From Spartobacteria bacterium (lineage in GTDB: Bacteria; Verrucomicrobiota; Kiritimatiellia; RZYC01): DNA of 37,751 bases. The translations under genes and the position numbers were made by a program. The DNA is taken from contig RZZM01000010.1 in assembly GCA_009929845.1 (NCBI GenBank), positions 1 through 37,751 of the forward strand, written 5' to 3'. Below are positions 775-23,963 of this stretch, piece by piece. Within the stretch, counting starts at the first letter, position 1; every line of letters starts with the position of its first letter. The notes under the pieces were generated by a model. That model worked only from the letters and a program-made list of their open reading frames with translations, ran no database searches and was not told the DNA's origin.

Positions 775-804
775 TTGATTGAGAAGTTACACGCGATGCA
801 TAAA
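775..804 (+). promoter_or_regulatory. weak candidate promoter for the cas operon
   Basis: TTGATT at 775-780 and CATAAA at 799-804 are separated by 18 bases, about 80 bases upstream of the cas3 start. The match is modest. A separate TATAAA at 765-770 has no -35 partner. Listed only because the large single-direction cas operon needs a promoter in this gap. Confidence 0.22.
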
Positions 805-886
805 AGAGGTTGTCCTGGGGCCGGTCACACGCTACCCTCTTCCTGATCCTGAGATGTTTGGGGTCACAAAGGAGGTTACGAAAACC

Positions 887-3166
887 ATGCGCCCAAGGGA
901 TGTGCGTGAAGAGATTGTGTTGAGTTCGTTCAAGGGATCAATGCCTTTTTATGCCCACAGCCTTGAGGGCAAGGCGCCGTCTGAATGGCAGACGCTCGAG
1001 GCGCACCTGAACGGGGTAGCGAAGTCGTCCGCCGATTTTGCCTCGCCGTTTGGCGGAAATGAGTGGGCGTTCCTTGCCGGGCTTTGGCACGATCTCGGGA
1101 AGTACTCCCCGGCCTTCCAGAAAAAATTGTACGACGCCAACGGCATCGAAGCGCACATCGAAACGACGCCCGGACGTGTTGTGCACTCGGACGCCGGCGC
1201 CCATCTTGCCACCCTCAAAGAATGGCATAACACCGACCGCCTGCTCGCCTGGCTCATCATGGGGCACCACGCCGGTCTGGCCGACTACGACAGCGATAAA
1301 TCCGGCCCCGCCGCTCTCCAAGCCAGAATGCTCGACCCCCAACGCTCCGACCCCGTCCTCCTCAACGTCCCCGACGCTATCCGCAACCATCAAAGACCCG
1401 CCCAGGCCATCCCCAAAGACGCTTCACCCGCCTTTTTTATCCGTATGCTCTTCTCCTGCCTCGTCGATGCCGATTTTCTCGATACCGAGGCCTTTATGAC
1501 CCCCGAAAAGGCCAAAAAACGCGAAAAATATCCCGATTTGGCCGTTTTGGCGGCAAAATTCGACCATTTTTTGGAAAATGTGACAAAAAACGCCCAAAAA
1601 ACGCCCGTTAACGTCGTACGAAACGAAGTCTTGGCGCAATGCCGATGCGCGGCGGACCTCGATCCGACCGTTTTTTCGCTCACGGTGCCCACCGGCGGCG
1701 GGAAAACCCTCTCTTCGATGGCCTTTGCGCTGCGTCATGCCGTCAAACACGCAAAAAGCCGCATTATTTACGTCATTCCCTACACCAGCATCATCGAGCA
1801 GACCGTTGGCGTCTTTCGCGCGATCCCCGGTTTCGAAAACGCCGTCATCGAGCATCATTCGAACATCGCGCTTGATGACGAAGACGCCGAAACCAGCCGC
1901 AGCCGCCTCGCCGCCGAAAACTGGGATGCGCCGATCATCGTCACCACCGCCGTACAATTCTTCGAGTCACTTTACGCCTGCAAGACCAGTCGATGCCGAA
2001 AACTGCACAACATGGTCAATAGCGTCGTCATCTTCGACGAAGCGCAGTGCCTTCCACCCGAATTCCTCCGACCCTGCGTCTTCGCCATTCGCGAATTGCA
2101 GCGATTCTATCGCGTCACCCCCGTGCTCTGCACCGCCACACAACCCGTCCTGAACCACGCCGACCGCTTCGATTTTCGCTTCAGGGAAGGGTTTGAACAC
2201 GTCACCGAGATCGTCAGCGACCCCTCGGGCCTCGCGGAGCGCCTGAAAAGGACCGAAATCCAACTTCTGGACCAAAAAATGGCCGTTTCGGACCAAAAAA
2301 CGCTCCTCGAAGCCCTGAAAAGCGAAAAAGAAGCCGTTTTATGCATCGTAAATCGCAAAGAAGACGCCCGCACACTTGCCCGCGAGCTTCCGAACGAAAA
2401 AACCGTCCATTTATCGACCAATATGTGCGCCGAACACCGGTTTCGGGTGTTCGACGACATCAAGAAGCGACTGAACGACTCGAATGAGCCCTTTTATGTC
2501 ATCACCACCTCGTTGATCGAGGCGGGCGTCGATCTCGATTTCCCCATCGTCTACCGCGCCCTCGCGGGCCTCGATTCCATCGCGCAGGCCGCCGGACGCT
2601 GCAACCGCGAAGGAAAACGCCCCCAAAAAGGAAAAACCGTCATTTTTGTGCCTGAAAACCAGCCCCAATACGTCAAATCTGCCGCCGACATCGCCCAGGA
2701 AGCCCTTTCGGGCGAACTTTCGGCCATTTTCGCGCCCGAAACCATCGAAAACTACTTCAAAACCCGCTTCTGGCAGCTCGGAGAGGAAAAATTGGACCAA
2801 TTTGGCATCCTTGAACGGCTTTCGGGCGGCTTCAACTACGCCTATCGCTCCGTTGCCGCCGATTTTCGCCTCATCCGCGACGACTGGACCCGCCCGGTCA
2901 TCGTTCCATACGGCAAAGCCCTCGAAATCATCGATAATCTTCACGAACCCCCCTGGAATGTACGATTCCTGCTCCGAAAACTCCAACGCTACACCATTAC
3001 CATCGAAAAATCCCTGCACGACCTCATGCGCCAACGCGACGACATCCACCCCGTCCACGATTTTCCAAACCTTTTCACTCTCAACCCCCTCTTCTACAAC
3101 AAAAAATACGGCTTCATCCCACCCGATGAAGCGGGCCAAACCAACCCGGAGGATTTTATATGCTGA
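887..3166 (+). CDS. cas3: Cas3 helicase-nuclease, type I-C
   Basis: Cas3 is recruited by Cascade to R-loops, nicks the displaced DNA strand and unwinds it in an ATP-dependent way. The 759-residue product has an N-terminal HD nuclease: YAHS near residue 23, WHDLGK at 67-72, a histidine at 100 (VVHSDAGAH) and GHHAG around 127. A superfamily 2 helicase follows, with Walker A PTGGGKT at 268-274, DEAQ at 384-387, CTATQP near 415, and motif VI QAAGRCNR at 567-574. HD and helicase are in one chain, as usual for I-C. I start at ATG 887 because GGAGG lies at 871-875. In-frame TTG 779 has no ribosome site. ATG 941 (SMPFYAHS) is the alternative and would look more like typical I-C Cas3 N-termini. It is the first gene of the operon, 54 bases before cas5. 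Confidence 0.95.
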   Translation: MRPRDVREEIVLSSFKGSMPFYAHSLEGKAPSEWQTLEAHLNGVAKSSADFASPFGGNEWAFLAGLWHDLGKYSPAFQKKLYDANGIEAHIETTPGRVVHSDAGAHLATLKEWHNTDRLLAWLIMGHHAGLADYDSDKSGPAALQARMLDPQRSDPVLLNVPDAIRNHQRPAQAIPKDASPAFFIRMLFSCLVDADFLDTEAFMTPEKAKKREKYPDLAVLAAKFDHFLENVTKNAQKTPVNVVRNEVLAQCRCAADLDPTVFSLTVPTGGGKTLSSMAFALRHAVKHAKSRIIYVIPYTSIIEQTVGVFRAIPGFENAVIEHHSNIALDDEDAETSRSRLAAENWDAPIIVTTAVQFFESLYACKTSRCRKLHNMVNSVVIFDEAQCLPPEFLRPCVFAIRELQRFYRVTPVLCTATQPVLNHADRFDFRFREGFEHVTEIVSDPSGLAERLKRTEIQLLDQKMAVSDQKTLLEALKSEKEAVLCIVNRKEDARTLARELPNEKTVHLSTNMCAEHRFRVFDDIKKRLNDSNEPFYVITTSLIEAGVDLDFPIVYRALAGLDSIAQAAGRCNREGKRPQKGKTVIFVPENQPQYVKSAADIAQEALSGELSAIFAPETIENYFKTRFWQLGEEKLDQFGILERLSGGFNYAYRSVAADFRLIRDDWTRPVIVPYGKALEIIDNLHEPPWNVRFLLRKLQRYTITIEKSLHDLMRQRDDIHPVHDFPNLFTLNPLFYNKKYGFIPPDEAGQTNPEDFIC

Positions 3167-3220: not shown

Positions 3221-3880
3221 ATGAATAGCAACCCATTTCGCTTGCGGGTCTGGGGTGAGAATGCCTGTTTCACCCGCCCGGAGATGAAAGTCGAGCGTGT
3301 TTCCTATGAGGTGATGACGCCTTCGTCGGCACGCGGTATTCTCGAGGCCATCCTATGGAAGCCCGCTATCCGTTGGAACGTCCTGCGCATCGATGTCCTG
3401 AATCCGGTGCGGTGGGAATCGGTCCGCCGCAACGAAGTCGGCGCCGTGATCCCCGCCGGATCCGTCAAATCGGCGATGAAGAAGGGCGGTGGTGACCTGG
3501 GGCTCTTTATTGAGGACCATCGGCAGCAGCGCGCCGGTCTTTTCCTGCGCGATGTCGCTTATGTCATCCATGCGGCGTTCGAACTGACGGATAAGGCGGG
3601 AGCCGACGACTCAGTCACCAAATTCGAGCAGATGTTCATTCGTCGGGCGACCGCCGGACAATGCTTTCACCGGCCCTATTTCGGATGCCGCGAGTTTGCG
3701 GTCAGTTTCGAATTCATTCCCCAAAATACCGAGGGCCCGCCGCCGATCGCCGACACGAAGGACCTTGGATGGATGCTCTACGACCTGGATTATTCAGGGG
3801 ATGAACCCCTGCCGCAATTCTTCCATGCGCGCCTCGAGCGCGGCTCACTCGATCTGCAAAACGTGGAGGTGCGCTCATGA
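3221..3880 (+). CDS. cas5c: Cas5c (Cas5d), type I-C crRNA-processing nuclease and Cascade subunit
   Basis: In type I-C there is no Cas6. Cas5c itself cuts the repeat RNA at the base of its stem and stays bound to the 5' handle. The 219-residue product starts like the family (RLRVWGENACFTRPEMKVER), with the conserved VSYEVMTPSSARGILEAI helix around residues 28-45 and an EDHRQQRAGLFLRDVAYV segment around 96-113, the region that carries catalytic residues in characterised Cas5d proteins. A strong ribosome site AAAGGAGG ends 5 bases before ATG 3221. The stop overlaps cas8c by 4 bases (ATGA), indicating coupled translation. Exact catalytic residues were not assigned because no alignment was possible. 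Confidence 0.93.
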   Translation: MNSNPFRLRVWGENACFTRPEMKVERVSYEVMTPSSARGILEAILWKPAIRWNVLRIDVLNPVRWESVRRNEVGAVIPAGSVKSAMKKGGGDLGLFIEDHRQQRAGLFLRDVAYVIHAAFELTDKAGADDSVTKFEQMFIRRATAGQCFHRPYFGCREFAVSFEFIPQNTEGPPPIADTKDLGWMLYDLDYSGDEPLPQFFHARLERGSLDLQNVEVRS

Positions 3881-5643
3881 TCCTCAAGGCTCTCGCCGAT
3901 TATTATGAACGCCTTCTCGATGACCCGGCGTGCAACATCGCGCCACCAGGTTTCGAGCGGAAGGCGATTCCTTTCCTGATCGTCATCAATCGCAATGGCG
4001 ACTTTGTCAACCTGCGCGATACGCGAACAGGGGAGGGGAAAAAGAAGTCCGCCCGCGAATTTTTGGTGCCACAAGGCGAGAAAAAAGCAGCAGGGATCAA
4101 GGCCAACTTGCTCTGGGACAATCCTGAATATGTCTTTGGCGTACCGAAAAGTGATTCAGACAGAGATAAAAAACGCGCTCAAGATGCCTTTTTCGCCTTC
4201 AAAAAGCGGATTTCCGACACTTTTCCGTCCGATTTCGCTGATGAAGGACTTCAAGCCGTGCGAAAATTCATAAAAAATGCCGATTTTTCATATGTTTCAG
4301 CGAAAAATCCCGAAATTTGGGCCGAAATTGTCGAAAATCGGCCAAATTTGAGTTTTGTCCTCGAAAATGACGACCAGTTGATCGCCCAGAGAGGGGTAAT
4401 CGTTGAATTCATCAAAAAAAGCAACGAAACGGACGGCGAAAGCTGTCAGGCATGTGCCGTGACGGGCGAATTGGATGTGCCGGCCTCCTTGCATACAGCC
4501 ATCAAGGGCGTCTGGGGGGCGCAAACCTCCGGCGCCAATATCGTGTCGTTCAATCTGAGTGCGTTCTGTTCTTTTGGAAAGAAGCAGGGCTTGAACGCAC
4601 CTATCGGGCACAAAGCGGAAACGGCCTATACCAAGGCCCTGAATCATCTTCTGCGCAAAGGGTCGCGGCAGCGCATCCAGGTGGGTGACGCCAGCACGGT
4701 TTTCTGGGCGAAGCAGGCCTGCCCGTTCGAGGAAGATTTTTCGTTTTTCCTGGGCAGTGTGTCTGCCGAAAGCGAGGAGGATGCCAGCGGCAAGCTTCGC
4801 AGCCTGTTCAATGCCGTTAAGACCGGTGTTACGCCTATAGAAGACGATCTGCCGTTTTTCGTGCTGGGGCTGGCGCCAAATGCCGCGCGCATCGCTGTGC
4901 GTTTCTGGTGCGAGGGGTCGATCCGTGACTTCAAGGAGCGCATCGTGCGGCACTTCGGGGATATCGCTATTGTACGCGCGCCACACGACCGCGAGTTCCT
5001 TTCGCTGTTTATGCTGCTGACCAGCACGGCGACGGAAGGCAAGGCGGACAACATCCCGCCGAATCTGGGGGGCGATCTCATGCGGGCTGTGCTGACGGAT
5101 GCGCCGTATCCCCGGACACTGCTGGCGAATGCCATCCGACGCTGCAAAGCCGAACAGCGCGTCACGCATCCGCGGGCCGCTATTATCAAGGGTGTTTTGG
5201 AACGCGATCGAAGAATGAACCGAACCAATGAGAAGGAGGAAATACATATGTCGCTCGATAAAGATAGCGTTAACATCGGATATGTACTCGGGAGGCTTTT
5301 TGCCGTCCTCGAACGTATTCAGGAGCAGGCCCAAACGGGCCTCAACAAAACCATTCGCGATACCTATTTCGGCGCCGCGTGCAGTTCGCCGTTGGTGACG
5401 TTTAAGCGGCTTCAGGACTTGGCCGTTCATCACCTGGCCAAAATCCGCAACAGCGGCAAGAGTACGGTCTGGCTCGATAAGCTGCTGCAGGAGGTTATGG
5501 ACAAGCTGCCGTCCGCCGGTCTCCCGGCGACCCTGACGCTCGAAGACCAGGGGCGCTTCGCCATTGGTTATTATCATCAGCGCCAGGATTTCTTCACAAA
5601 GAAAGAACAGGAACCATCTGCTAACGAAGGAGAAAAATCATGA
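3877..5643 (+). CDS. cas8c: Cas8c (Csd1), large Cascade subunit
   Basis: The large subunit recognises the PAM and helps open target DNA. The 588-residue length is typical of Csd1. The family signature [16 protein letters not shown] lies at residues 211-226, preceded by a CxxC pair ([10 protein letters not shown], about 189-198) and followed by [13 protein letters not shown]. The start ATG overlaps the cas5c stop by 4 bases, and the TGA stop overlaps cas7c in the same way. The C-terminal 131 residues are also a separate small subunit, translated from an internal start at 5248. Upstream of that start, the bases encoding the linker [13 protein letters not shown] contain a perfect ribosome site, so the linker sequence is constrained by two functions. 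Confidence 0.93.
5233..5240 (+). promoter_or_regulatory. internal Shine-Dalgarno inside cas8c driving cas11c
   Basis: AAGGAGGA lies inside the cas8c reading frame, 7 bases before an in-frame ATG at 5248. It is as strong as the site before cas5c and much stronger than chance would favour inside a coding region. Independent translation of a small subunit from cas8c is established for type I-C systems; here the ribosome site is directly visible. Confidence 0.85.
5248..5643 (+). CDS. cas11c: Cas11c, small Cascade subunit translated from within cas8c
   Basis: Predicted 131-residue helical protein identical to the C-terminus of Cas8c, starting [20 protein letters not shown]. In type I-C Cascade, two copies of Cas11 form the belly of the complex and stabilise the R-loop. 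The evidence is the in-frame ATG at codon 458 of cas8c with AAGGAGGA 7 bases upstream. The sequence matches the expected small-subunit character: a [12 protein letters not shown] helix, then [15 protein letters not shown] and HHLAKI. It shares its stop, and the coupling to cas7c, with cas8c. That this product accumulates is an inference from the ribosome site and the known family behaviour. Confidence 0.85.
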
Positions 5644-6500
5644 GTACCCCCATCAACAACCGTTATGAATTTGTCATGCTGTTCGATGTCAAGGACGGCA
5701 ACCCCAACGGCGACCCGGATGCCGGCAACCTGCCGCGCATCGATCCAGAAACGGGCAACGGTCTGGTAACCGATGTCTGCCTGAAGCGCAAGGTGCGCAA
5801 CTACATCGCACTGGTCAAAGGCGAGCAGCCCCCCTTCGAGATTTACATCAAGGAAAAGGCGGTCCTGACCAATCAGCAGAAGAAGGCCTACGAGGCCCTG
5901 GATGCAGATGAAAAAAAGGAGGCTTCGCAAGTCGAGCAGGCCAAGGCCTGGATGTGTAAAAATTTCTACGATGTCCGCGCATTCGGCGCTGTTATGTCGC
6001 TGAAAGAATTCAACTGCGGACAGGTAAGGGGGCCCGTGCAGTTCACCTTCGCGCGCAGCGAAGACCGGATATTCACCGGCGAGCACTCGATTACGCGCAT
6101 GGCGGTGGCCACGCAGGCGGAAGCCGATAAACAGCACGGCGACAACCGTACGATGGGCCGCAAATTTACAGTGCCCTACGGGCTCTACCGCGCGCATGGC
6201 TATATCTCCGCGCCGCTCGCGAAACAGACCGGCTTCTCAGAAGAAGACCTTGAACTCTTCTGGAATGCCCTCCTGAATATGTTCGACCACGATCGCTCGG
6301 CGGCCCGCGGCGAAATGGCCGTGCGCAAGCTGATCGTCTTCAAGCATGACGGCGAACTCGGCAACGCGCCCGCGCAGAAGCTCTTCGAGCTGGTGGGTGT
6401 CGAAAAGAACCGCGACGATCAGCCGCCCCGTTCTTTTGCGGACTATACGGTCACGCTCGGCGCGCCGCCCGTCGGCGTCGAACTGATCGAGATGCTCTAA
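5640..6500 (+). CDS. cas7c: Cas7c (Csd2), crRNA-backbone subunit of Cascade
   Basis: Cas7 polymerises along the crRNA spacer to form the Cascade filament. The 286-residue product begins with the characteristic [20 protein letters not shown], then [20 protein letters not shown] and LKRKVRNYI. These are the RRM-like fold and loop residues conserved in Csd2. SITRMAVAT in the middle and the C-terminal GVELIEML also fit the family. ATG 5640 overlaps the cas8c/cas11c stop, with AAGGAG at 5627-5632 as ribosome site. A strong stem-loop begins 11 bases after its stop, so transcripts covering the effector genes may end or be stabilised there. Confidence 0.95.
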
Positions 6501-6511
6501 GACGAGAATTG

Positions 6512-6566
6512 AAAACCTCCACTGCGTCAGGCTGGCTTGTTACGGATTTGACGCAGTGGGGATTTT
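6512..6566 (+). other. strong stem-loop between cas7c and the nuclease gene
   Basis: AAAACCTCCACTGCGTCA (6512-6529) pairs with TGACGCAGTGGGGATTTT (6549-6566), with 16 of 18 positions exact and a 20-base loop. The AAAA/TTTT outer ends give it the shape of a bidirectional terminator or attenuator, but the run after the stem is only four T. It could reduce read-through into the HEAT-nuclease and cas4-cas1-cas2 genes or protect the 3' end of effector mRNA. Confidence 0.7.
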
Positions 6567-6585
6567 CTGAGAATTGTAACAAGTC

Positions 6586-7452
6586 ATGGATATTCAAAAC
6601 GAACGTAAACTCGCAGCGCGCGCGACCGAACTGGGAAAAAGCGGGCGTGCTGAGGCCTTTGAGGAGCTGACTGAACTGGTGCGTTCATCTTCTGCACTGG
6701 TCAGGCGTCTCGCGGCCTCTGCGATGGGCAAGCTTGCCGGGATCATTCCTGCCGAACCGGCGGTGAAGGCGCTGATTCCCCTGCTGGGGGATGCGCATCC
6801 TCAGGTTCGGCAATACACAGCAAAGGCCCTCAGCGCCTTTGGAGCTGATGCGAAAGACGCACTGCCCGATCTGCGTGATCTGTACCGCAATGCATCAGAA
6901 ATGGATTATGTCAAACGATCAGTGTTGACCGCTGGCAAAGTAATCCGCGCTTCGGTAGATATAGCGCAAAAGCAAGCCGTGCACACCTGTCAGCGCTGCG
7001 GCGTTCGCCTCGAACACGATGAATTCGCCCGCTCACAAAAGGCCTTTCAGCGTCCGTTCTGCAACTATTGCTTCGACGAAGTCTTCCTTGAGCGACGCAA
7101 CTTCGAGACCAAAGTCGAGTTGCAGAAAAATATCCGCGCCAAGGATGGCGCCTGGGTGCAGTCCGACGGCGAACGCCTGATCTGCGAGGCGCTTCATGCC
7201 GCAACCATCAGCTACCGCTATGACGAGCGCTTCCGCATACTCGATGGCTATGCCATTCGGCCGGATTTCTATCTCCCTGAATTCGATGTCTATATCGAAT
7301 ACTGGGGCATGGACACCGCCGATTACAAAATCGGCATGCTCAAAAAGCAGCAGCTCTATCAGCAGCAAGGCAAGAAACTCATTTCGCTCTATCCGGCCGA
7401 CAAGCCGCATATGCGGGAAACACTTATGCGGAAACTCGATATGATCAAATAA
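6586..7452 (+). CDS. HEAT-repeat / zinc-finger / PD-(D/E)XK nuclease-like protein inside the cas operon
   Basis: A 288-residue protein that is not a standard type I-C Cas protein. Residues 20-123 form about three HEAT-type helical pairs (for example LVRRLAASAMGKLAGI and VRQYTAKALSAFGADA). A CxxC...CxxC zinc knuckle follows (C135, C138, C159, C162). Residues 193-270 match a restriction-endonuclease-like fold: SDGERLICEAL (E196), RPDFYLP (D227), VYIEYWGMD (E238) and a final KKQQLYQQQGKKLISLYP segment. This resembles the nuclease modules attached to some UvrD/HelD-type helicases, where the usual ExK lysine is replaced. The start at 6586 has no clear ribosome site and lies 20 bases after a strong stem-loop, so expression may be low. 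Its position between interference and adaptation genes suggests a role in either stage or in anti-phage cleavage; this is inference. Confidence 0.8.
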   Translation: MDIQNERKLAARATELGKSGRAEAFEELTELVRSSSALVRRLAASAMGKLAGIIPAEPAVKALIPLLGDAHPQVRQYTAKALSAFGADAKDALPDLRDLYRNASEMDYVKRSVLTAGKVIRASVDIAQKQAVHTCQRCGVRLEHDEFARSQKAFQRPFCNYCFDEVFLERRNFETKVELQKNIRAKDGAWVQSDGERLICEALHAATISYRYDERFRILDGYAIRPDFYLPEFDVYIEYWGMDTADYKIGMLKKQQLYQQQGKKLISLYPADKPHMRETLMRKLDMIK

Positions 7453-7512
7453 GAATGCGCGCTATGCTTTGTGCCGGGAACGCGCAATATCACGCAAAAA
7501 GCGGAGTCAGCC

Positions 7513-8160
7513 ATGTCGGACAATAAAAACTGGACGGAAGAGGATTTGCTCCCGATTTCCGCGCTCCAGCATCTGATATTCTGCGAGCGACAGTGCGCAT
7601 TGATCCATATCGAGCAGCTTTGGGATGAAAACCGATTTACTGCTGAGGGCCGTGTTATGCATGAACGGGTTCATGAACTCGGCGCGGAGCAGCGGGGCAG
7701 GGTGCGGGTTGCCCGGGGCTTGCGTATCCGGTCACTCGAGTTGGGGCTGATTGGACAGGCCGATATCGTCGAGTTTCATCGACAGGATGATGGATCGGAA
7801 GTTCCATACCCTATCGAGTATAAGCGGGGACGCGCCAAACCCTCTGACTGCGACAAAATCCAACTTTGCGCGCAGGCGCTCTGTCTGGAGGAAATGCTCA
7901 GCACGCACATTCCGGAAGGGGCGCTTTTCTATGGCAAACCCCATCGGCGATTAATGGTCCCCCTGGATAATGCGCTGCGCGCCTCGACCGCCGAAACTGC
8001 CCAGCGCCTGCATGCATTGATTCGCTCTGGCATCACCCCGACCCCGGAGTATGAGCGTCGCAAGTGCGAGGCCTGTTCGCTCTACGATCTGTGCCGTCCA
8101 CGCGCTTTCCTTGAGGGCGGGAATGTCGCCCAATACCTCGAAAGGATGCTGTCCGAATGA
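7513..8160 (+). CDS. cas4: Cas4, RecB-like iron-sulfur nuclease for spacer processing
   Basis: Cas4 trims prespacers and selects those with a correct PAM, working with Cas1-Cas2. The 215-residue product has the RecB-type motifs H50, GQAD (D84), IEYKRG (E102, K104) and DKIQLCAQAL (Q117). Four cysteines for a 4Fe-4S cluster are placed as in the family: C24 in FCERQC and C185, C188 and C194 in the CEACSLYDLC tail. I use ATG 7513 because GGAG lies 6 bases upstream; a GTG at 7471 would add 14 residues with no support. The stop overlaps cas1 by 4 bases, so the adaptation genes form a coupled unit. Confidence 0.93.
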   Translation: MSDNKNWTEEDLLPISALQHLIFCERQCALIHIEQLWDENRFTAEGRVMHERVHELGAEQRGRVRVARGLRIRSLELGLIGQADIVEFHRQDDGSEVPYPIEYKRGRAKPSDCDKIQLCAQALCLEEMLSTHIPEGALFYGKPHRRLMVPLDNALRASTAETAQRLHALIRSGITPTPEYERRKCEACSLYDLCRPRAFLEGGNVAQYLERMLSE

Positions 8161-9188
8161 AGAAATTCCTGAACACGCTGTTTGTTACCACGCAGGGCGC
8201 TTATCTCAACAAGGAGGGAGAATCCGTCGTCGTTTCCATAGAAAAGACCGTGCGGTTGCGCGTGCCGATCCATACGCTTGGCGGTATCGTCTGCTTTGGA
8301 AATGTCCTCTGCAGCCCTTTTCTGATGGCACATTGCGCGCAAAATCAAGTGCTCATCAGCTTTCTGACCGAAAACGGTCGTTTTCTGGCCCGAGTGACCG
8401 GCAAGGTGTCCGGCAATGTCCGTTTGCGTCGCGCGCAATATCGCATGGCTGACGATGAGGCGATCCGCCTGACGTTGGCGAAAACTTTTGTTTGCGCCAA
8501 AATTGCCAATGCGCGAACGGTCCTGCAGCGTGCGCTTCGCGATCATGCCGACAAACTCGAAGACGATCCCTTCACGCCTGTCATCCTTCGCCTGAGCCGC
8601 GTTATCGATGCTGTGCGCAGTGTCGATAACATGGAATCCTTGCGCGGCTGCGAAGGCGATGCGGGCCGCGAGTACTTTGGTGTCTTTGATCACATGATCA
8701 CCGCCGGGAAGCCGGAGCTGAGTTTTTCGGCGCGCAATCGACGGCCCCCCACCGATCCGGTTAATGCGCTGTTGTCTTTCATCTATGTGCTGCTTGCGCA
8801 CGATTGCGCGGGCGCGCTTGAAGCCGTCGGACTCGATCCCCAGGTGGGCTTTCTGCACAGTGATCGGCCCGGACGCGCCGGCCTGGCCCTTGACCTGATG
8901 GAAGAGTTCCGTCCGTTCTTTGCTGATCGTCTGGTGTTGTCACTCATCAACTTAAAGCAAATTAACGCCAGGGGGTTCACATCCACTGAAAGTGGCGCGG
9001 TGGAAATGAACGATGCGACGCGCAAAGAAGTACTGACCGCTTACCAATCCCGCAAACAAGATGAACTCCGGCATCCCTATTTAAATGAACCCGTGCCCAT
9101 CGGGATGCTGATGTTCGCGCAGGCGTTGCTCATGGCGCGTTATATCCGTGGTGATCTGGATGGCTATCCCGCATTCTTCTGGAGGTAA
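8157..9188 (+). CDS. cas1: Cas1 integrase, type I-C
   Basis: Cas1 is the metal-dependent integrase that inserts new spacers at the leader end of the array. The 343-residue length is typical for I-C. Metal-binding residues are visible as E166 (RGCEGDAGREYF), H234 (GFLHSDRPGR) and the acidic cluster in LALDLMEEFRP (D246 to E250). The N-terminus MKKFLNTLFVTTQGAYL is the usual beta-sandwich opening of subtype I-C. ATG 8157 overlaps the cas4 stop, and cas2 follows after 6 bases. No truncation or missing residue was seen, so the adaptation module looks functional. Confidence 0.96.
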   Translation: MKKFLNTLFVTTQGAYLNKEGESVVVSIEKTVRLRVPIHTLGGIVCFGNVLCSPFLMAHCAQNQVLISFLTENGRFLARVTGKVSGNVRLRRAQYRMADDEAIRLTLAKTFVCAKIANARTVLQRALRDHADKLEDDPFTPVILRLSRVIDAVRSVDNMESLRGCEGDAGREYFGVFDHMITAGKPELSFSARNRRPPTDPVNALLSFIYVLLAHDCAGALEAVGLDPQVGFLHSDRPGRAGLALDLMEEFRPFFADRLVLSLINLKQINARGFTSTESGAVEMNDATRKEVLTAYQSRKQDELRHPYLNEPVPIGMLMFAQALLMARYIRGDLDGYPAFFWR

Positions 9189-9194
9189 TCTGTT

Positions 9195-9488
9195 ATGATG
9201 GTACTGGTAAGCTACGATGTCTCGACCATTGATAAAGCCGGACGCGCCCGACTGCGCAGAATCGCCAAAATTTGCCTCAACTATGGACAACGCGTTCAGA
9301 ATTCTGTTTTTGAGTGCGATGTCGATCCTGGCCAGTGGGTCAAGCTCAAGAATCAGTTGGAAAGAATCTACGATCCCGGCTCAGACAGCCTGCGTTATTA
9401 CTATTTGGGCTCCAACTGGCAAAGAAGGGTTGAACATCAAGGAGCCAAACCCACATTGGATATTCGAAATGATCCACTTATCATATGA
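9195..9488 (+). CDS. cas2: Cas2, adaptation complex subunit
   Basis: Cas2 dimers bridge two Cas1 dimers in the integration complex. The 97-residue protein shows the ferredoxin-like fold signature MVLVSYDVST (aspartate 8) followed by GRARLRRIAKICLNYGQRVQNSVFEC, and the NWQRRVEHQG tail common to subtype I-C. GGAGG at 9181-9185, overlapping the end of cas1, serves as ribosome site. Either of two adjacent ATG codons (9195 or 9198) could be used. It is the last cas gene, and the CRISPR leader follows directly. Confidence 0.95.
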   Translation: MMVLVSYDVSTIDKAGRARLRRIAKICLNYGQRVQNSVFECDVDPGQWVKLKNQLERIYDPGSDSLRYYYLGSNWQRRVEHQGAKPTLDIRNDPLII

Positions 9489-9723
9489 TGCTGTTCCGGC
9501 CCTTTGCACTGCACTGCGCCCTCATTTTTTTGTGTCCGCGAACCTGTATCACTCATGGAATGCCCGGTCGGTTCGCGGAAAAACATAACACGTTCATTGA
9601 CAATTGAATACGCATTATCAAAAAACCGGATGCTTGATTATTGCGATCAAATTATGGAAATCATTTTCGGTTCGTGCATTTCATGATATTGACCTCTACA
9701 GCGCAAACACTTATATTATGACT
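9489..9723 (+). promoter_or_regulatory. CRISPR leader
   Basis: A 235-base AT-richer stretch between cas2 and the first repeat. The repeats end in ATTGAAAC, the conserved 3' end of the type I-C repeat, so the array is read left to right and this side is the leader. It contains an exact inverted repeat TCCGCGAACC (9535-9544) / GGTTCGCGGA (9570-9579), flanked by T and A runs that would extend the stem. This is a candidate adaptation-factor site or hairpin. Short frames crossing it have no ribosome sites. Confidence 0.8.
9689..9717 (+). promoter_or_regulatory. predicted promoter of the CRISPR array
   Basis: TTGACC (9689-9694) and TATATT (9712-9717) are separated by 17 bases, a near-consensus sigma-70 arrangement. 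Transcription would start around 9724, the first base of the first repeat, so pre-crRNA would begin with almost no leader RNA. Confidence 0.65.
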
Positions 9724-12700
9724 GTCGCCCCCCTCGCGGGGGCGTGGATTGAAACAGCCATTCTGTACCCGGCTTGTTGACGGGCGAGTCGCCCCCCTCG
9801 CGGGGGCGTGGATTGAAACGTGCCTGTGCTTGTTGAGGATACCGCCACAACGGAGTCGCCCCCCTCGCGGGGGCGTGGATTGAAACACTTCATCAATGGC
9901 AATCGTTTTTGTGGCCTTCTGTCGCCCCCCTCGCGGGGGCGTGGATTGAAACATTCAGCATCAGCAAAGACTTGCCCTGCGCTGGGTCGCCCCCCTCGCG
10001 GGGGCGTGGATTGAAACTTTACATTCTTGTTAGTCGTTAGCTGTCCGTTAGTCGCCCCCCTCGCGGGGGCGTGGATTGAAACATAAACAAGGTGAACCCC
10101 AGCGACTTCACCGCGTCGCCCCCCTCGCGGGGGCGTGGATTGAAACTCGTTATCCATTTCCCTTACTCCTTTTTTTGGTTGTCGCCCCCCTCGCGGGGGC
10201 GTGGATTGAAACAGGACGCCCCAGTCCAGTGCGCTTGAGCCGTTGAGGTCGCCCCCCTCGCGGGGGCGTGGATTGAAACTATTTTGACAGGGAACGGGTT
10301 ACAAATGCGCCTGGTCGCCCCCCTCGCGGGGGCGTGGATTGAAACGACCTCCGTTGTAGCAGTATCCTCAACAAGTAGTCGCCCCCCTCGCGGGGGCGTG
10401 GATTGAAACGCCGGCAAGCCATATCTCCCGGTCCAGCCTGTGTCGCCCCCCTCGCGGGGGCGTGGATTGAAACATACGCCGTTCCTTTTCTCCGCGTGCA
10501 GGATGCGTCGCCCCCCTCGCGGGGGCGTGGATTGAAACCGTGGCCGCTGTCCATGTCAAAAATAAAGCCCGTCGCCCCCCTCGCGGGGGCGTGGATTGAA
10601 ACTTTTGCCACCCCTTAACCTGTGCGCAACCCTCGGTCGCCCCCCTCGCGGGGGCGTGGATTGAAACTTTATTATCGCAATTATTACACGGTCAATTACA
10701 GTCGCCCCCCTCGCGGGGGCGTGGATTGAAACAGATGGTTGGTTGTCGAGTCAGCCGCCGCCCATGTCGCCCCCCTCGCGGGGGCGTGGATTGAAACGCG
10801 AGCGCAGCAATAGACCTTGCAGGCTTGTCGAGTCGCCCCCCTCGCGGGGGCGTGGATTGAAACCCGGTCAAGCCTGTCCACGTCTGCAAAGTATATCGTC
10901 GCCCCCCTCGCGGGGGCGTGGATTGAAACGGATGCTGGCGGGACGCAAACGCGACGTGCGAGTCGCCCCCCTCGCGGGGGCGTGGATTGAAACAGCACTG
11001 CATCAGCAAGGGATGGATCGCGTGGGGTCGCCCCCCTCGCGGGGGCGTGGATTGAAACACGCGCGCATGCCGGGGGCCGACCTTGTCACGGTCGCCCCCC
11101 TCGCGGGGGCGTGGATTGAAACCTGTTCGCGCTGCGGGGTGATGAGCGAGGCGACGTCGCCCCCCTCGCGGGGGCGTGGATTGAAACTGAAACTGCCGGA
11201 CGACGCGGATGTAAACTCCGTCGCCCCCCTCGCGGGGGCGTGGATTGAAACTTCGACGTATGGCCCGCCGGCGCGCAAGTCCAGTAGTCGCCCCCCTCGC
11301 GGGGGCGTGGATTGAAACTACGGCGACACGTTGCTGTTCACCTCCGACAACGTCGCCCCCCTCGCGGGGGCGTGGATTGAAACACCCACAAAAGCGCGTT
11401 TGAGTGGGTTGGTCTGGGTCGCCCCCCTCGCGGGGGCGTGGATTGAAACGCCAAATGCATTATTATTATACCCACCAACAGCCGTCGCCCCCCTCGCGGG
11501 GGCGTGGATTGAAACGTATACAAACGCACTGACGCTTCGCGGGGACTTGTCGCCCCCCTCGCGGGGGCGTGGATTGAAACAGCTCGTCGCGCTCTGACGG
11601 ACTGAGAGAAACGTCGCCCCCCTCGCGGGGGCGTGGATTGAAACTTGGCTTAACAAATTGATGTGTCCACGGCGCTGGTCGCCCCCCTCGCGGGGGCGTG
11701 GATTGAAACGTGCCGTTCAGGTACAGGCCCCCGGAAGCGTAGGTCGCCCCCCTCGCGGGGGCGTGGATTGAAACAACGGCAAGACGGAAGATGCCACAAA
11801 TACGGTGTCGCCCCCCTCGCGGGGGCGTGGATTGAAACCCGGTCAAGCCTGTCAACGTCTGCAAAGTATATCGTCGCCCCCCTCGCGGGGGCGTGGATTG
11901 AAACACCGATCCAGCGAACCCCGCCGATTTCTGTTTCGTCGCCCCCCTCGCGGGGGCGTGGATTGAAACGGCGCAAGCCCTGAAGCGATAACCATCGTAC
12001 CGAAGTCGCCCCCCTCGCGGGGGCGTGGATTGAAACACGGTCGGCGTTGCCCAGACTTGTGCACTCAAGTGTCGCCCCCCTCGCGGGGGCGTGGATTGAA
12101 ACCCGTCTACCTCACGCCATACGGGGTCGAAGTCCTTGTCGCCCCCCTCGCGGGGGCGTGGATTGAAACGCCGGTCAAGCCTGTCAACGTCTGCAAAGTA
12201 TATCGTCGCCCCCCTCGCGGGGGCGTGGATTGAAACGAGCCAGCGCTTATATTGGCTTGCGCTCATATGTCGCCCCCCTCGCGGGGGCGTGGATTGAAAC
12301 CGGTCAGTATAGATGTTATGCCAGCGGAATCAGGTCGCCCCCCTCGCGGGGGCGTGGATTGAAACTGTGATCAGACCGTATTTGATTGGGAGGTGTAGGT
12401 CGCCCCCCTCGCGGGGGCGTGGATTGAAACGCGCCGGGCCGCTCTCAATCATTAGATATATGTAGTCGCCCCCCTCGCGGGGGCGTGGATTGAAACTCTG
12501 CCTGCCGGTACATAAGCCAGACCGACCACCGTCGCCCCCCTCGCGGGGGCGTGGATTGAAACCTATTGGAGAAGACGGCAGCGCGATTGCCTAAGTCGCC
12601 CCCCTCGCGGGGGCGTGGATTGAAACTAACATCGGCAAGATATGAGGGGCCATAAAATGTCGCCCCCCTCGCGGGGGCGTGGATTGAAACGTCCACACGC

Positions 12701-14262
12701 TGCCGTCCCATGTCAGCACATCGTCGCCCCCCTCGCGGGGGCGTGGATTGAAACGTCACGGGGACCGGGTGGACCAACATGCAGATATGTCGCCCCCCTC
12801 GCGGGGGCGTGGATTGAAACGACAGTAAGTGGAGGGAGGAGTAACTCTGCGTCGGTCGCCCCCCTCGCGGGGGCGTGGATTGAAACAAATGTGTTGCTCA
12901 TGGTATGGTGGCCCTTCTTGGTCGCCCCCCTCGCGGGGGCGTGGATTGAAACACCGTGTGCGAGCACATAGTCGCTATCAGCGTCGTCGCCCCCCTCGCG
13001 GGGGCGTGGATTGAAACAGATGCGCGCGCGGTCCTTCGCGTGCCGGGATGGTCGCCCCCCTCGCGGGGGCGTGGATTGAAACAGGTGTGTGGGTGTTCAC
13101 GATGGGGGAATACGAAGTCGCCCCCCTCGCGGGGGCGTGGATTGAAACTTCTTTCAACAACTGGACAAATCCAAACATAGACGTCGCCCCCCTCGCGGGG
13201 GCGTGGATTGAAACCTTTGACATTCGAGGCGTGGAACTATGGCACCGGTCGCCCCCCTCGCGGGGGCGTGGATTGAAACCTCGTCACCTGTTCGCCTTAT
13301 CTCGCCGCAACATGGTCGCCCCCCTCGCGGGGGCGTGGATTGAAACTTTTAGATGACGTGGGCCGTAACCGCCTATGGATTGTCGCCCCCCTCGCGGGGG
13401 CGTGGATTGAAACTTTCCTGCGATTAAGCAGGATGTTGGAATAACAGTCGCCCCCCTCGCGGGGGCGTGGATTGAAACAAAGGGTGCAGAAAACGCAATG
13501 TGTATCAAGCGTCGCCCCCCTCGCGGGGGCGTGGATTGAAACGAGTGGTGTAAACACGCGCACTGCGAGCTGTGGGGGTCGCCCCCCTCGCGGGGGCGTG
13601 GATTGAAACGTTTTAGTGGCATTTGTACCCTGGGCGGTGGCCGGGTCGCCCCCCTCGCGGGGGCGTGGATTGAAACATGTTATGGATGTTCCGGGTCGGG
13701 GAAATGGTCGTCGCCCCCCTCGCGGGGGCGTGGATTGAAACGAGCGCAGCGGTAGTGACAAACATCTACGTGGTCGCCCCCCTCGCGGGGGCGTGGATTG
13801 AAACGTACTGTCTGTACTACACATACGACCGGACTAAGTCGCCCCCCTCGCGGGGGCGTGGATTGAAACAGCAGGTACTAATAATTTAACAACCTAAAGC
13901 CCGTCGCCCCCCTCGCGGGGGCGTGGATTGAAACAGAAGCTTTTTAACCGCCTCACCAAGGCGGAAAGTCGCCCCCCTCGCGGGGGCGTGGATTGAAACT
14001 CCGCGGAAAAACGTGGGAAAACAGCGGCGTGTACGTCGCCCCCCTCGCGGGGGCGTGGATTGAAACGTCGTAGGTTTGGTATGCGGTTACATCATTGGTG
14101 TCGCCCCCCTCGCGGGGGCGTGGATTGAAACACCGCGTCACAAAGCACGAGCCGATTGACAATGGGTCGCCCCCCTCGCGGGGGCGTGGATTGAAACAAA
14201 CCTATCGGATGTGGACGCGCCGGACCCGACGTCGCCCCCCTCGCGGGGGCGTGGATTGAAAC
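9724..14262 (+). CRISPR. type I-C CRISPR array, 70 repeats and 69 spacers
   Basis: A 32-base repeat beginning GTCGCCCCCC and ending GTGGATTGAAAC is present 70 times by hand count, with spacers of 31-35 bases. All copies I read are identical, including the last at 14231-14262. Repeat bases 3-9 (CGCCCCC) pair with 15-21 (GGGGGCG) over a 5-base loop. Cleavage at the stem base would leave the 11-nt handle TGGATTGAAAC, as known for Cas5c processing. Spacers 18 (10864-10897), 33 (11839-11872) and 38 (12170-12204) are near copies. Spacers 2 (9820-9854) and 10 (10346-10377) overlap as near reverse complements. No spacer visibly matches the rest of this window. Open frames over the array on both strands are repeat read-through, not genes. 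Confidence 0.99.
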
Positions 14263-22805: not shown

Positions 22806-23963
22806 ATGATAAATCGCGAAAATGAGTTGGCTGAGCTTGATGGCTTGTTGAAGAGGCATCGGATTGTGGGCCTTATCGGCGCCCGGCAGGTGGGTAAATC
22901 CACCCTGGTGAAGGAATACCTGAAATCGGTATCCACACCGCGACACATGTACGATATGGAGAATCCTGACGATCAGGCCCGGATGTCAGAACCGATGCTT
23001 GCGCTTAAAGGGCTTAAAGGAATCGTGGTGATTGATGAAATTCAACGCGCTCCGGATCTGTTTCCTGTTTTACGTGTTCTGGCGGATCGCAAACCTGGTC
23101 CCGCCCGGTTTATAATACTGGGAAGCGCCTCCCCTGAATTACTGAAGCAAAGTTCGGAGTCCCTGGCGGGTCGAATTTTCTACCATGAATTGGATGGGTT
23201 TTCCCTGGACGAGGTGGGGGGGAAGAATGTGGATAAACGATGGGTACGCGGAGGGTTGCCGCAGGCCTATCTGGCGCGATCACACCGGGAAAGCTTTGAG
23301 TATCGCGCCGGGTATATACGCACCTTTCTCGAAAGGGACCTTCCTCAATTGGGCATCAATGTAAGCGCCTCCACTATGCGTCGCTTCTGGATTATGCTGG
23401 CTCACTATCATGCGCAAACCTGGAACTCATGCGAATTAGCCCGTTCTTTTGGCGTGGCTGACAGCACGGTTCGAAGTTACCTGGATCAGCTTACCTCTGC
23501 CCTGGTTGTTCGCCAACTGCAACCCTGGCATGAGAACATTCGTAAGCGCCAGGTTAAAGCGCCAAAAGTCTATGTTGCAGATAGCGGTATTCTGCATTCC
23601 TTGCTCAACCTTCCTGAAAAGGCCGATCTGGAATCACATCCCAAATGCGGCGCTTCATGGGAAGGTTTTGTGATTGGCCAAATAATTCACCACCTGGGTG
23701 TTCGCTCCGAGGAATGCCATTTTTGGGCAACCCATGCCGGAGCAGAACTTGATTTGCTGGTGGTGCGTGGCCGCAAACGCCTGGGTTTTGAAATCAAACG
23801 CACTACATCTCCAAAGATAACCCCCTCCATGCGGCATGCGCTCGAAGATTTGAAATTATCCCATTTAGATGTAATCCATGCCGGAGAGCATACCTTCCCC
23901 CTGGGCCCAAGAATTCGGGCGGTTCCCCTGCAAAATCTCTTGGAAGATATTTCTCCTCTTTGA
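22806..23963 (+). CDS. AAA_14 ATPase with DUF4143 C-terminal domain
   Basis: A 385-residue soluble P-loop ATPase of the widespread AAA_14/DUF4143 group. Walker A is GARQVGKST (25-33) and Walker B IVVIDEIQ (73-80), with an ILGSASPEL sensor region near 104-112. Next comes a winged-helix-like part (CELARSFGVADSTVRSYLDQ, 209-228), then a PD-(D/E)XK-like core with GAELDLLV (E314, D316) and FEIKRT (E329, K331). Proteins of this type are often mobile and have been suggested to act in DNA-related or defence functions, but no precise role is established. AAGGAA precedes the start. It stands alone, next to the palindrome cluster, which fits horizontal acquisition. Confidence 0.85.
   Translation: MINRENELAELDGLLKRHRIVGLIGARQVGKSTLVKEYLKSVSTPRHMYDMENPDDQARMSEPMLALKGLKGIVVIDEIQRAPDLFPVLRVLADRKPGPARFIILGSASPELLKQSSESLAGRIFYHELDGFSLDEVGGKNVDKRWVRGGLPQAYLARSHRESFEYRAGYIRTFLERDLPQLGINVSASTMRRFWIMLAHYHAQTWNSCELARSFGVADSTVRSYLDQLTSALVVRQLQPWHENIRKRQVKAPKVYVADSGILHSLLNLPEKADLESHPKCGASWEGFVIGQIIHHLGVRSEECHFWATHAGAELDLLVVRGRKRLGFEIKRTTSPKITPSMRHALEDLKLSHLDVIHAGEHTFPLGPRIRAVPLQNLLEDISPL

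Follow-up and report, generated by a model that had tools for sequence, protein, structure and literature searches.

In Legionella pneumophila Toronto-2005, overlapping type I-C spacers against LME-1 have been described, and the part of the report that deals with them reads them as a sign of recurrent challenge, possibly with priming (PMC5071653). The relevant section of a survey of type I-C systems gives TTC as the canonical PAM, the C of which can end up as the final repeat base (PMC8482600). Here we describe an array in Spartobacteria bacterium (GCA_009929845.1) in which spacers 2 and 10 overlap on the same site but lie in opposite orientations. The window, that is, the whole stretch of DNA that was analysed, has 37,751 nt and covers positions 1-37,751 of contig RZZM01000010.1 on the forward strand.

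Immediately upstream of the array the window carries a full set of type I-C cas genes. The effector genes cas8c/csd1, cas7c/csd2 and cas5c exceed the curated cut-offs of TIGR01863, TIGR02589 and TIGR01876, respectively, and cas3 and the cas4-cas1-cas2 adaptation module adjoin the array (Table 1). Type I-C repeats are typically about 32 bp long and end in ATTGAAAC, and the array here, with regular repeats of about 32 bp ending in ATTGAAAC and spacers of 31-35 nt, fits this type. The final bases of the repeat are GAAAC. In other arrays the leader-distal repeat is often degenerate; here the repeat farthest from the leader is also identical, and 70 of the 70 repeats are alike. An accessory gene lies between cas7c and cas4 and encodes HEAT repeats with a weak zinc-ribbon match. 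It was assigned to HEAT_CxxC_PD-DEXK by PADLOC (PDLC01150, E 8.7e-156), and it is this family name that gives it a PD-(D/E)XK domain. Homologues were found in 101 of the 288 class genomes searched (own genome included), and at 9 of the 19 homologue loci examined the gene also sits between cas7c and cas4. A literature search on the HEAT_CxxC_PD-DEXK gene found nothing. Elsewhere in the window, positions 22806-23963 encode a protein of 385 residues that matches the PADLOC candidate defence family PDC-S01.

Table 1. Coordinates of the cas genes, the array and the spacers discussed, in positions of the window
Feature	Positions	Strand	Details
cas3 (HD nuclease and helicase)	779-3166	+	
cas5c	3221-3880	+	TIGR01876
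cas8c (csd1)	3877-5643	+	TIGR01863
cas7c (csd2)	5640-6500	+	TIGR02589
Accessory gene HEAT_CxxC_PD-DEXK	6586-7452	+	PADLOC PDLC01150; outside the spacer finding
cas4	7471-8160	+	
cas1 (type I-C)	8157-9188	+	TIGR03640
cas2	9195-9488	+	
Putative leader, A+T-rich stretch from cas2 to repeat 1	9489-9723	+	Assigned by sequence and position only
CRISPR array	9724-14262	+	70 identical 32-bp repeats, 69 spacers of 31-35 nt
Spacer 2, 35 nt	9820-9854	+	Shared site is the last 28 nt, 9827-9854
Spacer 10, 32 nt	10346-10377	+	Shared site, reverse-complemented and with three differences, fills the final 28 nt, 10350-10377
Spacer 18, trio member	10864-10897	+	One base changed
Spacer 33, trio member	11839-11872	+	
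Spacer 38, trio member	12170-12204	+	One extra 5' G

The sequence-only reading had located spacers 2 and 10 correctly and had reported a match of 26 nt with two differences between spacer 2 and spacer 10 read in reverse complement. That match is exact as far as it goes, but overlaying the spacers by position extends it to 28 nt and three differences. The differing bases are all transitions, at window positions 9828 (G/A), 9843 (C/T) and 9846 (C/T), and the merged site, as reconstructed from both spacers, is about 39 bp long. The best local score for the pair was 20, whereas 20 shuffled sets of spacers gave best scores of 9-15. Likewise, the mismatch fraction of the pair was 0.107, versus lowest values of 0.20-0.35 in the 20 shuffled sets when overlaps of at least 20 nt were considered. 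The next unrelated pair of real spacers reached 0.333, and among all real pairs only those of the trio 18/33/38 were closer than spacers 2 and 10. The overlap is genuine and lies far outside chance. The description of both spacers as near the leader is also fair, since they take positions 2 and 10 of 69, provided that the leader is the A+T-rich region that separates cas2 from repeat 1.

Spacers 18, 33 and 38 represent one 34-nt site in identical orientation, which, judged from their sequences, suggests that the site was captured three times independently, with a boundary shift of one base. Because this trio exists beside spacers 2 and 10, the array has re-captured a site on at least two occasions, and the trio is stronger evidence of recurrent invaders than spacers 2 and 10. 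The trio site had no host copy outside the array (up to three mismatches), none in the 344 other class genomes and no match in IMG/VR. One GTDB contig matched it over a 21-base pattern, with flanks that differ, and this match was taken as chance.

Our reading is that spacers 2 and 10 are two independent captures, separated in time, from the same locus of two diverged but related mobile elements (probability about 0.85). One capture from one molecule is excluded because the two sequences differ. Spacer 10 would have been taken first and spacer 2 later, in the opposite orientation, and the source elements were most likely phages. The three transitions in third codon phase would then represent natural divergence between the two invaders. 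The crRNA of each spacer should guide Cascade and Cas3 to one place, on opposite strands. If the canonical 5'-TTC is present at both protospacers, the PAMs would lie just beyond the two ends of the ~39-bp site and face inwards. The earlier suggestion of a repeated invader is well supported: chance would hardly give such an overlap, the alleles are not identical, and the trio is another case of same-site capture.

The shared site probably lies inside a gene, on one strand or the other. The three differing bases occupy the same codon phase and leave LVEDTATTE unchanged, and the forward frame of the merged site, VPVLVEDTATTEV, is the same in both alleles. The sequence-only reading had interpreted its two differences as third-position changes in LVEDTATTE and concluded that the protein is under purifying selection. 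The first statement is true of the full set of three, but the changes are just as silent in the antisense frame TSVVAVSSTS, which reads TSVVAVSSTSTG over the merged site, is open too and is likewise the same in both alleles. LVEDTATTE is therefore a possible frame and not a unique one. Among the transition triples in 28 nt, 351 of 3276 (10.7%) are synonymous in at least one open frame; for random triples with any substitution the corresponding count is 1167 of 20000. An earlier count on 26 nt with two differences, in which 159 of 325 transition pairs were synonymous in some open frame, is superseded by the 28-nt count. Since about 11% of random transition triples pass, and since one frame on each strand fits equally well, the codon phase argues weakly for coding and for purifying selection on LVEDTATTE. 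We take the pattern as mild support for a coding site and as no test of selection.

The protospacer search with both spacers that had been proposed gave no target in the host genome, class genomes, GTDB contigs, IMG/VR or phages. In GTDB contigs, the core pattern of spacers 2 and 10 gave no match when exact bases were required except at two variable sites. The full coding-degenerate pattern had 0 matches in IMG/VR, a looser pattern hit 26 stretches in assorted frames and proteins, and two half-site patterns gave 1 and 0 matches, none convincing. The best looser match (L017) shares 22 of 23 core bases with the spacer-10 allele and sits in an open frame of 748 codons on the strand opposite to LVEDTATTE. 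It was rejected as a protospacer: its flanks differ, and one such match is about the number expected by chance on a rough estimate. BLAST of the spacers against 50,697 phage records returned partial matches only (E at least 0.08), and none was coherent among those inspected. A 6.4-kb unannotated phage record matching 22 of 23 bases of spacer 10 was rejected as weak; at the matching stretch its long open frame reads VEDTPTTLEEVEKLFG, which we take to be RelA/SpoT-like. We likewise rejected as weak the matches to two Microviridae records and to a minor tail gene of a mycobacteriophage, in which the match falls on the other strand, and a match of spacer 5 to Listeria phages (30 of 33 bases, E 0.1) in a repetitive stretch. 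When 25 of the 69 spacers were searched against plasmids, the single match (E 0.9) was to another spacer. The leader-near spacers 1 and 9 had no matches in IMG/VR. Because every collection searched was without a protospacer, we infer the invader, the PAM and the gene.

The repeated hit on this site could be due to chance. An array that draws most of its spacers from a single small element family would be expected to contain one overlap on opposite strands, and in a simple random-position model the expected number of such overlaps of at least 26 nt is 0.44 when 69 spacers come from one 40-kb element and 0.036 when 20 spacers do. Were many of the 69 spacers from one small element, a single overlap of this kind would therefore need no special cause. 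However, the array is probably spread across many invaders, and the trio 18/33/38 also demands repeated sampling, at another site. We regard chance overlap as quite plausible, although short of even odds; it bears on the reason for the double hit and leaves the fact of it untouched.

The hint of primed acquisition in the sequence-only reading is compatible with the spacer pair, and we keep it as a tentative possibility. The crRNA of spacer 10 would have bound a variant invader imperfectly, and nearby Cas3 processing would have yielded spacer 2 from the opposite strand. Priming has been documented in type I-C systems, and the overlapping Legionella spacers are so read in the part of the report devoted to them (PMC5071653). 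Consistently, spacer 10 is the older of the two by position and would have three mismatches to the spacer-2 allele. However, seven other spacers separate spacer 2 from spacer 10, and the mismatches, counted on the alignment, are at positions 13, 16 and 31 of spacer 10. These positions lie outside the PAM-proximal seed at its usual extent, so spacer 10 may still have worked on the spacer-2 allele. Moreover, the overlap alone cannot tell priming from independent sampling. A narrower form, in which spacer 2 was primed at exactly the site to which the spacer-10 crRNA complex was bound, overlapping the primer site on the opposite strand, seems very improbable to us. If true, it would be unusual for Cas3-driven acquisition, since capture would have taken place at the bound site and not upstream or downstream of it.

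Both spacers might instead derive from the host's own genome, by self-targeting or from a lost prophage. The assembly is incomplete (779 contigs, scored 91% complete), so a host copy of the site could be missing. With up to three mismatches, however, the core pattern of spacers 2 and 10 found nothing in the host genome beyond the two array copies, which argues against self-derived spacers. Only the array copies were found in 97 relatives and in 345 class genomes (own genome included in both sets), with 0 matches in the 344 other class genomes. A search of the own genome with 36 of the 69 spacers, joined, gave outside the array only an 18-base match to spacer 25 (E 0.55). Host origin is accordingly very improbable. 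The host has a second array on contig C533 (L040), at 5317-7329 on the minus strand, with 31 repeats and 30 spacers up to the contig edge; its repeat is one base off that of the window, and no spacer site is common to the two arrays. Duplication of one spacer within the array followed by mutation, for which the 34 bases identical between spacers 33 and 38 might speak, is excluded for spacers 2 and 10 because they are mutually inverted and offset, extending past the shared site on different sides.

Two captures from related invaders would mean that this lineage faced related mobile elements more than once, and the two alleles of the ~39-bp diagnostic site could identify the invader once its genome is sequenced. 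Knowledge of type I-C adaptation is unchanged by spacers 2 and 10, which are an ordinary instance of a published phenomenon. As for the PAM, the survey section gives TTC with its C as a possible last repeat base (PMC8482600); the repeat here likewise ends in C (GAAAC), and TTC is the predicted PAM of this array. As in Legionella Toronto-2005, a type I-C array holds spacers of different age on overlapping regions, and variants of the invader are involved (PMC5071653). In contrast to our case, in which the differences lie outside the seed, the element targeted in Legionella has been identified, and there it is at the PAM or seed that the older spacer is mismatched (PMC5071653). The part of that report on the overlapping pairs leaves their relative strand placement unstated (PMC5071653); spacers 2 and 10 here are opposite.
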